Made by a program: the position numbers and the translations under genes
Notes under the pieces: generated by a model
The model's input: only the letters and a program-made list of their open reading frames with translations
The model's database searches: none
Told to the model about the DNA's origin: nothing
Part shown: piece by piece, positions 1,645 to 17,663 of the stretch
Position numbering within the stretch: the first letter of the stretch is position 1
How the letters are laid out: the number at the start of each line of letters is the position of its first letter
Virus record (IMG/VR): IMGVR_UViG_3300040815_000111
Coordinates: 1 to 20,614 of that record
Length of the DNA stretch: 20,614 nucleotides
Direction: 5' to 3' (one strand)
Source: a virus

Positions 1645-1767
1645 TTACTTCTTCTTCGGGAACCCACGCTTCATATTAGCGTATGACTTAGGTGATATTG
1701 TAGACTTCTTCTTACTACGACTAATACCTAACTTCTTCCGTCTGTTTATATTTTTATATAAGCTCAT
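1645..1767 (-). CDS. 40-aa very basic conserved phage protein
   Basis: This is a short gene between the membrane coiled-coil gene and the 80-aa basic gene. The translation begins MSLYKNINRRKKLGISRSKK and ends KSYANMKRGFPKKK. The signature STISPKSYANMK...GFPKKK is one I recognise from many marine cyanophage and pelagiphage genomes, which supports a real gene despite its length. The ATG overlaps the upstream stop in an ATGA arrangement, and the downstream gene starts 2 nt after its TAA. About 15 of 40 residues are Lys or Arg, which would fit nucleic-acid binding. No function is known to me. Confidence 0.75.
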   Translation of the reverse strand: MSLYKNINRRKKLGISRSKKKSTISPKSYANMKRGFPKKK

Positions 1768-2015
1768 CGTTTCATTAACATCTCCATCATGCGATCCAGT
1801 TTATTATTAATCTCTTTAACGGTAACCTCTAACCCACTCATACGGTTCTCAACAGCAGTATCTCTTTCGCTTTGTGCTGCTAGTTCGACCTCTATCTTTG
1901 TGAGTCGTCGTTCGTCGTTCTCTAAGCGATCAGACAGTTTCTTTATCATCCAACCGATCACTGCAAGTATTACTCCAAGAGCGGTATCTAAAAAGTGGGA
2001 GAGGGATTCAGTCAT
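1764..2015 (-). CDS. 83-aa N-terminal membrane anchor plus coiled coil; holin/spanin-type lysis candidate
   Basis: Residues 9-24 (LDTALGVILAVIGWMI) form one hydrophobic segment. Residues about 27-80 are charged with heptad-like spacing (LSDRLENDERRLTKIEVEL, then MSGLEVTVKEINNKLDRMM), predicting a coiled coil. The topology is a short N-tail, one membrane span and a long soluble helix. In T7 the holin gene 17.5 directly follows the tail fibre, and this gene lies in the comparable place, after the fibre set. The design could be a one-span holin, an inner-membrane spanin without its outer partner, or a membrane-anchored XhlA-like or virion-assembly protein. No endolysin or outer spanin is visible in the window, so the lysis assignment is an inference from topology and synteny. 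Confidence 0.6.
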   Translation of the reverse strand: MTESLSHFLDTALGVILAVIGWMIKKLSDRLENDERRLTKIEVELAAQSERDTAVENRMSGLEVTVKEINNKLDRMMEMLMKR

Positions 2016-2763: not shown

Positions 2764-3309
2764 TTATGCGATTGATCCAAAGTCTAATGTTGTTGATAGT
2801 TTATCAGAGTCTACTACACTGTTAGCAATAGTAAGACTGGTTGATCCTGTTACGTCTCCTGTGTGCGTAGCATTTGTTACCTTAGCAGTATTAGCTGTAA
2901 CAGCAGAGTTGTTAGCTACTTCTGTATCGAAGTCAGATATCGTACTAGCAGCCTGTGTGCCTGTGTGATTAGCTCTAGCTAGTAAAGTTGCATCACTAGA
3001 GTTAGCAGTAGCACCGTTAGCTACGTTTAACAAAGCTTGAGTCTGTGCTACACTTAACTCTAATATATCAGAAGAACTACCAGTATTATTACCTAATATC
3101 GTATTAGCAGGTATCTCTTCTATCTTAGCGAATGTAACAGAGTCGTCTGCGATAGCAGCTAACGAACCTACTACTTGACCCCCAGCCGTCGTACCGTCGT
3201 GTACGTATAAATCTTTAGTATCAGTAGTGTAAACAAGTTCTCCCTCTTGTCCTATGAAACCTGTGTTCTCAGCATTAGTTCCTCTTCTTATTTGTACTTC
3301 AATACTCAT
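2764..3309 (-). CDS. 181-aa fibre protein: RRGT N-domain plus HTG repeat shaft
   Basis: Residues 2-50 form an Mtd-N-type module (SIEVQIRRGTNAENTGFIG, then EGELVYTTDTKDLYVHDG), close to that of the 242-aa neighbour. The shaft contains two HTG-type repeats (LLARANHTGTQAASTI and TNATHTGDVTGSTSLTIANS) with VVDSDKLS, a standard fibre-linker pattern. The protein ends STTLDFGSIA, and that FGSIA end echoes the DYGSIA motif near the end of the upstream adaptor fibre. The start codon directly abuts the fibre stop (TAAATG). A good GGAGG sits 10 nt upstream, inside the last codons of the fibre gene. It is likely a separate subunit extending the tail fibre; assembly order is inference. Confidence 0.8.
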   Translation of the reverse strand: MSIEVQIRRGTNAENTGFIGQEGELVYTTDTKDLYVHDGTTAGGQVVGSLAAIADDSVTFAKIEEIPANTILGNNTGSSSDILELSVAQTQALLNVANGATANSSDATLLARANHTGTQAASTISDFDTEVANNSAVTANTAKVTNATHTGDVTGSTSLTIANSVVDSDKLSTTLDFGSIA

Positions 3310-15142: not shown

Positions 15143-16201
15143 CTAAGCTACTAATTCGATAGCACACTCAGGACGGAGAACTCCGTGACCCATAGCATAC
15201 TTAGCGACGAATAGCGTACCTTGGCGTTCAATCTGATATTCAGATTCAGTAGCAAGATCAAGTAGTTTAACAGTTCCTACAGCAGCAGAGTGGGAGATGA
15301 TTCCCAAGCTGTTACGGAAGTCTCCGTTGTACCCTACTCCACCTGAACCAAACACATCATTAGCTGATGAACCGTCTCCAGTAGAAACAGCTGATAAATC
15401 AGTTGATGGAATGTGGTTGGATTTGTAGATGTTGATGCCAGCAATCTGAGGTATCGATCCTGAAGCAAGACTTCCTTGACCACCGATGTCAGAGTTAACA
15501 GCAGAAACAAGGCTGAAGCTATTGGAGCTGTCTGCACCTGTTACTAACTTGTAGTACTCTTGTGGACGAAGAACGCAGAAACGACCATCGCTAGGAACGT
15601 CATTCTCATCAAGCTTCTGAGCAGCAGTAAAGAAAGCAGCAACTAGGTCAGCACCTGTAGTAGCAGCAACCGTACCTGGAGTATCAGGAGCAGAGAAGTC
15701 GTTATTAGCAACGTCAAGCTGTCCACCTGAAGTTCCGACTTGACTCAAGTTAGCGGAATCACGAGCAGCAGCACAGAATACTTTAGCTAAAGCAGTGTCG
15801 AAACGTTTGGCAAGAGCCTTACCTAACTCGTTAGCGTAAACTGAACGAATGTCGTAGTGGTTCTTAACGTCGTCGATGTTAGCCAAGAAGGTAGAAGCAA
15901 CAAGCATCTTATCGATGGTGATGATCTTTTCTGTCTTAGCGATGTCACTGAGGTAACTATTTCCACCGTCAGCAATGTTCTCGCCTGGAGTGTGGTAGTT
16001 AGCTGAAGCAATACCCGTTACTGGGAACTGTGCGGACTTACCGTTTTCGATTGTTCTGATTGTATGTAGTGCCTTGAATACGTTGGATTCGTCAAAGGTT
16101 TGCAGTATCTCTCCAGAAAATTTCTTGAGAAACAAAGCATCGTTGTCAGATCCACCTTCAATAAGACCTACGCGACTTGGGGATGTATTTCCATTTGCCA
16201 T
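15143..16201 (-). CDS. major capsid protein, T7 gp10-like (HK97 fold)
   Basis: The protein is 352 aa (T7 gp10A is 345 aa) and starts MANGNTSPSRVGLIEGG. The segments FLKKFSGEILQTFDESNVFK, HTIRTIENGKSAQFPVTG, EKIITIDKMLVASTFLANID and RFCVLRPQEYYKLV are typical of T7-like capsid proteins of the HK97 fold. It ends GVLRPECAIELVA. The gene has the strongest ribosome-binding site in the window (AGGAGA, 10 nt before the ATG) and its own leader of about 120 nt. It is followed within 8 nt by a terminator hairpin, consistent with the highest late expression. I looked for a T7-style -1 slip site near the stop that would give a longer minor form and saw none. Confidence 0.95.
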   Translation of the reverse strand: MANGNTSPSRVGLIEGGSDNDALFLKKFSGEILQTFDESNVFKALHTIRTIENGKSAQFPVTGIASANYHTPGENIADGGNSYLSDIAKTEKIITIDKMLVASTFLANIDDVKNHYDIRSVYANELGKALAKRFDTALAKVFCAAARDSANLSQVGTSGGQLDVANNDFSAPDTPGTVAATTGADLVAAFFTAAQKLDENDVPSDGRFCVLRPQEYYKLVTGADSSNSFSLVSAVNSDIGGQGSLASGSIPQIAGINIYKSNHIPSTDLSAVSTGDGSSANDVFGSGGVGYNGDFRNSLGIISHSAAVGTVKLLDLATESEYQIERQGTLFVAKYAMGHGVLRPECAIELVA

Positions 16202-16321
16202 AATATATAGTCTCCTATTTTGTTGTTGTTATAGTTAGTTGTTGGTTGGTTGACTCTTACTTCTTTCGTGCTCACAGGATTGTCTACCGCAGTAGGTCTA
16301 GGGACTAATTGTTGCAATCGT
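16202..16321 (-). promoter_or_regulatory. capsid gene leader: probable late promoter region, G-free leader and strong ribosome-binding site
   Basis: This is the longest non-coding gap in the window, placed where T7 has its strongest late promoter. On the minus strand it holds a small hairpin (CTAC-TGCG-GTAG, 16284-16295). A 38-nt stretch with no G follows (16216-16253), made of CAA/CAACC-type repeats. Then comes AGGAGA (16211-16216) 10 nt before the capsid ATG. The G-poor, unstructured leader should keep the ribosome site open. I could not identify a T7-like promoter consensus; TATAAC lies in the leader but has no good -35 partner. The promoter is therefore inferred from position, while the ribosome site is seen directly. 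Confidence 0.5.
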
Positions 16322-16450
16322 CTATAAATTATTAAATATGTTACCGATTACTATAAGACCAATAAATACACCAATTGTCAACACTAGTGCTTTCTCCCTC
16401 GTCTTTAGTCCACGGTATATCCGTAGTAATCTCTTAACTTGAAACTCCAT
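16322..16450 (-). CDS. 42-aa single-span membrane protein overlapping the lipoprotein gene
   Basis: This small frame starts at the ATG at 16450, overlaps the last 17 nt of the upstream lipoprotein-like gene in another frame, and ends at TAG 16322. The translation begins MEFQVKRLLRIYRGLKTREK and continues with a hydrophobic span at residues 20-38 (VLTIGVFIGLIVIG), ending NIFNNL. The basic N-terminal half and single span predict an inner-membrane protein with the positive part inside. Support comes from the clean amphipathic/hydrophobic layout, the overlap typical of coupled phage genes, and its filling an otherwise empty gap. No family is recognised. It could be a partner of the neighbouring membrane protein or a small holin-like protein; neither is shown. 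Confidence 0.5.
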   Translation of the reverse strand: MEFQVKRLLRIYRGLKTREKALVLTIGVFIGLIVIGNIFNNL

Positions 16451-16871
16451 TCTTTGTCTTCTTGTGAACGTACCTCGTATATATGATCGGTATGACATTC
16501 CATAAGACTACACCTACGAGACATAGCTTTAGCAAGCCATAAATTTCAGTCAACATACCGTCAAAGAAGCCTTCATCCATAGATTCATCTAGCTGATTTT
16601 TGACTAGTTGTTGTACATCTCCTTCACTTAACGCTTTGACTTGGCTTGTTAAATGTTTGTTTTCTTCCATGTATTTGGAGACTTCTCCTACTCCCCATCC
16701 GAGGGCAGCACCGCCAGCAGCAGTACCAGGACCACCGAGGCTACCAACGGCAGCACCACCTGTGGCTCCCAATGCGGGATAAAAAGAAGCCTTGGAACAT
16801 CCGTTAAAGAAACTCCCGAAACCCAATAAAACGAGAGAAAATAAAATACGGATGTGTCCAAGGCTTCTCAC
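16434..16871 (-). CDS. putative lipoprotein with C-terminal membrane segment, between scaffold and capsid genes
   Basis: The frame has no ATG before residue 68, so the GTG at 16871 is taken as start, with only a weak ribosome site. Residues 1-24 form a signal-like segment (basic RSLGHIR, then hydrophobic ILFSLVLLGFGSFF) ending NGC, with Cys25 as a possible lipidation site. The -3/-2 residues (Phe, Asn) are poor for a lipobox. Residues 33-62 are Gly/Ala-rich (LGATGGAAVGSLGGPGTAAG), like glycine-zipper segments. A helix with NKHLTSQVKALSEGDVQQLV follows, then a second membrane span at about 111-131 (KLCLVGVVLWNVIPIIY) and a basic tail. T7 has no such gene between 9 and 10. It may be a virion membrane-active protein, a lysis or an exclusion protein; function unknown. 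Confidence 0.6.
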   Translation of the reverse strand: MRSLGHIRILFSLVLLGFGSFFNGCSKASFYPALGATGGAAVGSLGGPGTAAGGAALGWGVGEVSKYMEENKHLTSQVKALSEGDVQQLVKNQLDESMDEGFFDGMLTEIYGLLKLCLVGVVLWNVIPIIYTRYVHKKTKNGVSS

Positions 16872-16895: not shown

Positions 16896-17663
16896 TTAAA
16901 AACTACTCACAGCGAGACGTCTGTCAACCTCATTATGATAAGCTTTATCACCACTCTTATATCGAGGGTCTGCTTGAGCACGAGCTAACTCCTGCATAGA
17001 TTGATAAGGCATTGTAGAAGAACCACTTAGCCCTCCTTGTACAAGCTGTGGTTTAGAACCAGTAGAATTTTGATACCTAGCATATAATCCTTGGACTGCT
17101 AACTTCGCTTGTTGTATCGTGCCTCCTGTAACAGCTTCGTCAAATGCGTCGACTTCCTCCTGCGGTAAATTGTCGTTTGCCCACTCAGCCATAGCATCGT
17201 AGTTTCCACCTGCCACTCCTTTGATCTGGGCTTCTTCTGTTTGCAGTAAAGCTTGTTGACCAGCTGCGTAACTATCGACGAGATCACGAGGTAGTCCTAC
17301 TTCTTCAAGTTTCTTATAAGTATCTTCAGACAGTTGACCGTCGTTTGCAAAGTACTCCTTACTAGCTTCAACAACAGCTTCGTTATAATTACTAGCTTCT
17401 TCTGTTGGCGGCTCCTCTGCCTTATCCATTTTCTTGGGGTGTTCCTCTTCAACTTCTTCTGCCCCTGCTCCCATTCTTTTTTCAAGAGACGCATATGCTT
17501 GTGCCATGTCCTCCGCACTTTTAAACTTTTCAGGTAACCACTCAGGACGCTCTTGCTGTGGTTCCTCTTGTTGAACTTCAGGAGTCTCAACCGCTTCGTC
17601 AGCTTCAGGTTCGATCTCATTAGGTGCTTTATCGTTAATCTCTACTCGGTGTAATTCTGCCAT
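16896..17663 (-). CDS. capsid assembly scaffolding protein, T7 gp9-like
   Basis: The protein is 255 aa (T7 gp9 is 307 aa) and very acidic and Glu/Gln-rich at the N-terminus (NEIEPEADEAVETPEVQQEE, then PQQERPEWLPEKFKSAEDMA). The segment PEWLPEKFKSAEDMAQAYAS is the usual signature of T7-like scaffolds. The middle is helical (YFANDGQLSEDTYKKLEEVG, YAAGQQALLQTEEAQIKG). The C-terminus (MQELARAQADPRYKSGDKAY, then HNEVDRRLAVSSF) is the conserved capsid-binding end. It directs procapsid assembly and is absent from mature heads in T7. It starts 3 nt after the portal stop, with AGAGGA overlapping the last portal codons. Confidence 0.92.
   Translation of the reverse strand: MAELHRVEINDKAPNEIEPEADEAVETPEVQQEEPQQERPEWLPEKFKSAEDMAQAYASLEKRMGAGAEEVEEEHPKKMDKAEEPPTEEASNYNEAVVEASKEYFANDGQLSEDTYKKLEEVGLPRDLVDSYAAGQQALLQTEEAQIKGVAGGNYDAMAEWANDNLPQEEVDAFDEAVTGGTIQQAKLAVQGLYARYQNSTGSKPQLVQGGLSGSSTMPYQSMQELARAQADPRYKSGDKAYHNEVDRRLAVSSF

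Follow-up and report, generated by a model that had tools for sequence, protein, structure and literature searches.

A predicted glycine-zipper lipoprotein encoded between the scaffold and capsid genes of uncultured T7-like phages is a candidate unimolecular spanin

The stretch of DNA analysed here (the window, 20,614 nucleotides) is the 20.6-kb record IMGVR_UViG_3300040815_000111, which belongs to a marine T7-like phage. Its main genes are on the minus strand, and it carries two overlapping genes for putative membrane proteins, A and B, between the scaffold gene (16896-17663) and the capsid gene (15143-16201). At this position of T7 the promoter phi10 is the sole annotation, as an initial annotation of the window had remarked. 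Gene A (16434-16871, minus strand) encodes 145 residues and begins with a GTG directly after an in-frame stop. Its predicted product consists of an export signal region (residues 1-24, 16800-16871), the lipobox FNGC (residues 22-25, 16797-16808), a glycine-rich zipper (residues 33-64, 16680-16775) and one strong hydrophobic span (residues 112-130, 16482-16538, mean hydropathy 2.16) followed by the basic tail RYVHKK. Gene B, on the same strand and in a reading frame different from that of A, was found as the initial annotation had placed it, with 42 residues and a 17-nt overlap with A (16322-16450), and its single predicted membrane span lies near the C-terminus (residues 21-39 of this short form, 16334-16390, hydropathy 2.55). 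Additionally, the B frame is open from an upstream ATG at 16498, which gives a long form of 58 residues overlapping A by 65 nt (16322-16498). In the leader of the capsid gene, outside A and B, the minus strand could form a hairpin of 4 bp with a UGCG loop (16284-16295), for which compensatory changes occur at 2/4 pairs among 15 sequences from the window and its relatives; a resembling sequence is present in AP013544 and HTVC031P, the hairpin in the window has no Rfam match, and the sequence around it did not turn up as a repeated element.

A scan of IMG/VR for gene A returned 116 encoding stretches, of which 80 were taken, and a second scan with a profile returned 137, with no more distant relatives of A among the 80 listed. 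The order scaffold-A-capsid is kept in 93/93 loci containing all three genes, and the lipobox sequence GCSKA occurs in 48 of the 49 distinct complete A frames, the exception being a remnant at locus L143. Among 30 aligned A proteins, Gly24, Cys25 and nine glycines of the zipper are invariant, the span is nearly so, the residue following Cys25 is always Ser, and no Cys occurs in the predicted periplasmic part (residues 26-111) of any of them, so that the earlier description of A as a lipoprotein-like protein that combines a glycine zipper with a span at the C-terminus holds across its relatives. The lipoboxes of these 30 proteins, judged by pattern and in most cases with F at -3, outside the classical consensus, read FTGC, LGGC and FGGC (6 each), FNGC, FFGC and FSGC (3 each), FAGC (2) and LSGC (1); F at -3 from the Cys is also found in an o-spanin lipobox, FVGC, in the part of the spanin survey available to us (PMC6139136). 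Mean pairwise identity is 44% in the signal region and 79% in the mature part of the 30 proteins, a combination of varying signal and conserved mature sequence that is the pattern expected of a processed lipoprotein, and the mature part gives dN/dS values of 0.05-0.18 in nine comparisons. The structure model of A is of low confidence (mean pLDDT 51), with a helix at residues 102-142 and no strands, and is too poor for a fold search.

In the family libraries, the nearest match of A is that of Gly-zipper_Omp (PF13488) to residues 33-72, with E 0.003 and 17.9 bits, under the gathering cutoff of 25; no Pfam match lies above cutoff, the best E values in PHROG and NCBIfam are 0.017 and 0.026 (YiaD_Gzip_OmpA), and no PDB sequence matches below E 0.28. 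Among GenBank phages the A of the window has no match and that of L131 one chance match (E 6), and the 48 pattern matches in GTDB genomes include no relative of A. All of the best family matches across A proteins are weak, with E values between 0.003 and 0.12, and they include a tail lysin as well as an internal virion protein. At the level of sequence, A has no convincing relative in PHROG, Pfam, NCBIfam, GenBank phages or the PDB beyond these uncultured phages, and in the spanin and marine-phage literature genes of the A/B type are undescribed in the titles and abstract openings of the matches listed.

Gene B is present in 99/99 loci with enough sequence, out of 102 that contain the stop of A, a count in which some contigs appear more than once and which comprises 33 distinct B sequences; with the B of the window as query, plain tblastn gives a match in 96/103 A loci. 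In other clades B has 34-38 residues, and its overlap with A is often 4 nt. Outside the overlap, B has fewer replacement than synonymous changes per site (L051 versus L131, dN 0.11 and dS 0.51), with dS saturated in distant pairs. Both frames are conserved and under selection; loss of the 42-residue frame, of Cys25 or of the span among relatives, which the initial annotation had named as speaking against its reading, was looked for and did not occur.

To see what else this slot contains, 155 distinct scaffold-capsid slots were classed by tblastn into 70 of A type, 45 of AP type (AP013544 and its relatives), 29 of an alternative (alt) type and 11 others. A home-made lipoprotein pattern marks 131 of them (A 70/70, AP 37/45, alt 21/29, other 3/11), at least five of these marks being doubtful: L250 and L251 are marked solely for a 62-63-aa protein, probably falsely, and in the three marked slots of the last class the mark is a protein of predicted lysozyme fold with a signal ending in GCC. 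The pattern misses eight alt slots, at least one of which (L095) has the same frame as the marked ones. In nine whole records (346 kb, sense strand) four frames elsewhere than in the slot are marked: G005 and G007 have one each, and RHEph21 has two. The genome G001, which comprises loci L167-L169, ends in a terminal repeat of 123 nt and is therefore probably complete; in all six of its frames, A is the sole frame with a lipoprotein-pattern mark.

AP-type slots encode a 62-aa single-span protein (phrog_9685, function unassigned) and then a frame overlapping that of an Rz1-like lipoprotein, whose matches to phrog_456 (E 0.0025-0.03) and to Pfam LysC (E 0.013 at best) are both weak and insufficient alone. 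Some AP and other slots have an extra protein of 164-165 residues with a signal and a confident model (pLDDT 88.9), whose top 37 matches in the PDB are all either lysozymes or lytic transglycosylases, if a destabilase among them is counted as a lysozyme, as we assume it may be; the top probability is 1.00, and the best E is 0.0066, with none below 0.001. This protein (L308 3178-3672 and 65 loci) has no Pfam or PHROG match, and it resembles a Cellulophaga phage 'lysozyme' with E 3e-4 over 45% of its length. Of 68 loci picked for this gene, with a few contigs counted twice, 54 show it flanked, within 2.5 kb, by scaffold upstream and capsid downstream, and 14 have one flank only. Pseudomonas phage LUZ100, with a capsid 47% identical, has in its slot the gene gp38 (L381 2066-2408), annotated as hypothetical, which matches the Rz-like spanin family phrog_1275 with E 1.6e-12; a frame of 78 aa that overlaps gp38 is unannotated. 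According to the available part of the LUZ100 paper, its authors could annotate no spanin (PMC10134795). The slots of HTVC031P, CRP-125 and P-SCSP2 hold small basic proteins unmarked by the lipoprotein pattern, which gives no mark anywhere in the records of HTVC031P and CRP-125, and those of RHEph01 and RHEph21 hold a small span protein, also unmarked, the two marks of RHEph21 lying elsewhere. The use of the slot for lysis-like or lipoprotein genes is not universal among T7-like phages.

The alt type encodes a protein of 107-126 residues with an N-terminal span and a coiled coil, and then one of 153-156 residues with about three spans. Within the three-span gene the +1 frame runs without a stop over at least 137 codons in 52/52 distinct proteins (one with N left out), and for three of these proteins it was open in 0/2000 random back-translations, which had about 11.6 stops on average. 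A lipobox-like motif occurs in this overprinted frame in 40/52 cases (for example L087 2763-3235 and L143 169-641), and the frame is a candidate o-spanin nested in a gene that is not that of an i-spanin. The alt cassette was also found in contigs without a match to the portal, scaffold or capsid of these phages.

At one locus, L143, and in this single case, A and alt genes occur together. The same junction is present in four contigs, each from a different metagenome: the alt cassette is joined there to a remnant of A, reduced to residues from about 111 on, and to an intact B that is identical in all four. One of these contigs, G024 (41.8 kb), matches A over residues 111-143 and nowhere else. 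Since the four contigs have one origin, they count as one event. We infer that the alt cassette replaced A and not the reverse; as far as this one junction indicates, the former place of A can thus be taken by a cassette that has a lipoprotein-like frame of its own. Because B is intact without A here, A and B appear to form no obligate pair, and B does not seem to need A. A loss of the stop in the A remnant was considered and rejected, as L022-like A genes extend beyond that point. L143 and L019 differ at 9 of the 72 nt that once formed the overlap, and these differences change 9/23 codons in the A frame and 1/24 in the B frame. The same changes placed at random altered 6.3 B residues on average, and one or fewer in 0/20000 trials; relative to other relatives with intact A, the L143 overlap alters B at 2-5/24 positions. 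This sparing of the B frame suggests that the long form of B is probably the one translated in the clade of the window, so that the frame described initially stands and its start would probably lie further upstream.

Based on the build of these genes and on the gene exchange, the locus, which is real and conserved, is best explained as a lysis locus, and we propose that A probably represents a new family of unimolecular spanins (u-spanins), one with a glycine zipper. In the accessible part of the survey, u-spanins are defined by a lipobox together with a C-terminal span, and the 58 reported there have no periplasmic Cys (PMC6139136). The u-spanin reading is supported by A having both marks and a predicted periplasmic part without Cys, and by A being the only lipoprotein-marked frame in G001; the lysis reading is supported by several related groups keeping lysis-like genes in the slot, and by the alt cassette with its own lipoprotein-like frame sitting in the place of A in the four contigs. 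The 13 u-spanin families of the same survey, in the part available, have no sequence in common (PMC6139136), and similarity to a known family is therefore not a requirement. In the proposed mechanism, A would be exported, lipidated at Cys25 and, with Ser after the Cys, sorted to the outer membrane, while its C-terminal span would remain anchored in the inner membrane, with the basic tail on the cytoplasmic side. Beside the lipid, the glycine zipper probably packs onto the outer membrane or inserts into it, and the 45 or so residues after it would bridge the periplasm, a bridge that is short for a periplasm and counts against the u-spanin reading. A would be held back by the wall until the wall is cut; A molecules could then gather and collapse, and so cause fusion or rupture of the outer membrane as the final step of lysis. 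B, with its start within A, would be a distinct small protein of the inner membrane. The lipidation, topology and membrane-fusing activity of A, and any role for B, are read from the sequences and are put forward here as predictions.

Compared with known systems, A resembles the u-spanin gp11 of T1 and the 13 families in its N-terminal lipobox, its single C-terminal span and the lack of periplasmic Cys, and gp11 is presumably similar to it in size. However, the T1 family is described as beta-rich, whereas A appears glycine-rich, with a probable helix in its poor model, and A would therefore represent a new family. Unlike the known u-spanin families, to which it has no detected similarity in the libraries searched, A has no recognised adjacent endolysin and is sited between scaffold and capsid. 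Two-component spanins (PHROG 456 and 1275, Pfam LysC) have likely members in the same slot, strongly so in LUZ100 and weakly in the AP013544 group, but A would join the lipid anchor and the span in one chain. With outer-membrane lipoproteins of the Gly-zipper_Omp/YiaD type A shares a lipobox followed by a glycine zipper, but it ends in a membrane span and not in an OmpA domain. T7 belongs to the same phage family as the A-type phages and has the same genome plan, and its lysis genes 3.5, 17.5 and 18.5/18.7 are located elsewhere than in the scaffold-capsid slot.

The initial annotation had left the choice between a lysis pair, a superinfection-exclusion pair and a virion factor for membrane entry, and of these the lysis option is favoured, with A as the outer-membrane disruptor and with the slot content in its support, while the notion of a pair is weakened. 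That A is a lipoprotein with another late role in the envelope, such as superinfection exclusion, its C-terminal span serving as an extra anchor, accords with its position alongside the capsid gene, with the known glycine-zipper lipoproteins of cellular envelopes and with the weak match to YiaD_Gzip_OmpA (E 0.026), but we regard it as unlikely, given the lysis-like genes that occupy the slot in several related groups, the want in G001 of any other lipoprotein-marked frame to act as spanin, and the replacement of A by a cassette that brings its own lipoprotein-like frame. A role for A, B or both as virion parts that aid the passage of the genome through the membranes at entry appears very improbable; the genes do lie between scaffold and capsid, and one A member weakly matches the internal virion protein family phrog_6056 (E 0.03), but an export signal with a lipobox would place A in the envelope of the cell that makes it, and genes for internal virion proteins are present elsewhere: a gp14-type gene in G001 (Pfam T7_gp14), and two large genes that, by position only, correspond to gp15 and gp16.

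An obligate two-gene lysis unit, in which B is either a holin or the inner-membrane partner of A, would account for the constant company of a small, overlapping, single-span B with A wherever the locus could be assessed. It is nevertheless improbable in view of the four contigs, where B persists beside the last residues of A, and of a competing holin candidate, an 83-aa protein with an N-terminal span and a coiled coil encoded downstream of the tail genes (1764-2015, minus strand). This gene is found in 16/24 records, with both slot types and several of the remaining records being fragments, and has weak holin and Rz-like matches; it is a candidate holin equal to or better than B. A 76-aa gene of L370, compared with it, is alike in build and gives no alignment. 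B itself, with one span and 34-58 residues, has no match to a holin family in the Pfam, PHROG and NCBIfam searches and may perhaps be holin-like or a modulator of lysis.

If A is a u-spanin, as we propose, a wall hydrolase would be expected to act before it. Five enzymes of related phages and the AP013544 amidase gave no tblastn match in 179 sequences, many of them short loci. Amidase_2 was found in none of 24 records, a set without HTVC031P and CRP-125, with control genomes positive, and the A-type records searched contained no recognisable T7-type amidase. With six more Pfam families, of 10 records (seven of A or alt type) only AP013544 (Amidase_3) and CRP-125 (Hydrolase_2) were positive; this search missed the annotated peptidase of HTVC031P, so its sensitivity is limited. 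Pfam was searched with 18 ORFs of G001 and 10 of G005, most of the large ORFs. The slot protein of predicted lysozyme fold is absent from G001, G005, G007, G015, G020 and the window. Over the seven Pfam families and the enzymes of relatives, no recognisable wall hydrolase was found in the A-type genomes G001, G005, G007, G004, G008 and G011, and this is a gap, not proof of absence. A bolder proposal, which we hold to be unlikely as it stands, is that these marine T7-like phages gave up a recognisable endolysin and lyse by a membrane-bridging glycine-zipper lipoprotein with small membrane proteins, perhaps aided by an enzyme of the host or by some wall hydrolase of a type not yet known, and that the gap between scaffold and capsid is a site where unrelated lysis modules are swapped.

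Spanins are hard to find by sequence. A slot where unrelated modules, with different lipoproteins, take one another's place could make them findable by position, and A would add a candidate u-spanin class with a glycine zipper. Many marine phages are entered as spanin-less in the available part of the survey (PMC6139136). The A-type phages, with no recognised endolysin, also offer a place to test the usual account of tailed-phage lysis.

Elsewhere in these genomes, G001 35417-36289 is a gene of the GP88 family, function unassigned, which is 82% identical between G001 and G005. In the tail region of the window, the N-terminal domain of the major tropism determinant (Mtd_N) occurs in three proteins, encoded at 940-1254, 2020-2748 and 2764-3309.
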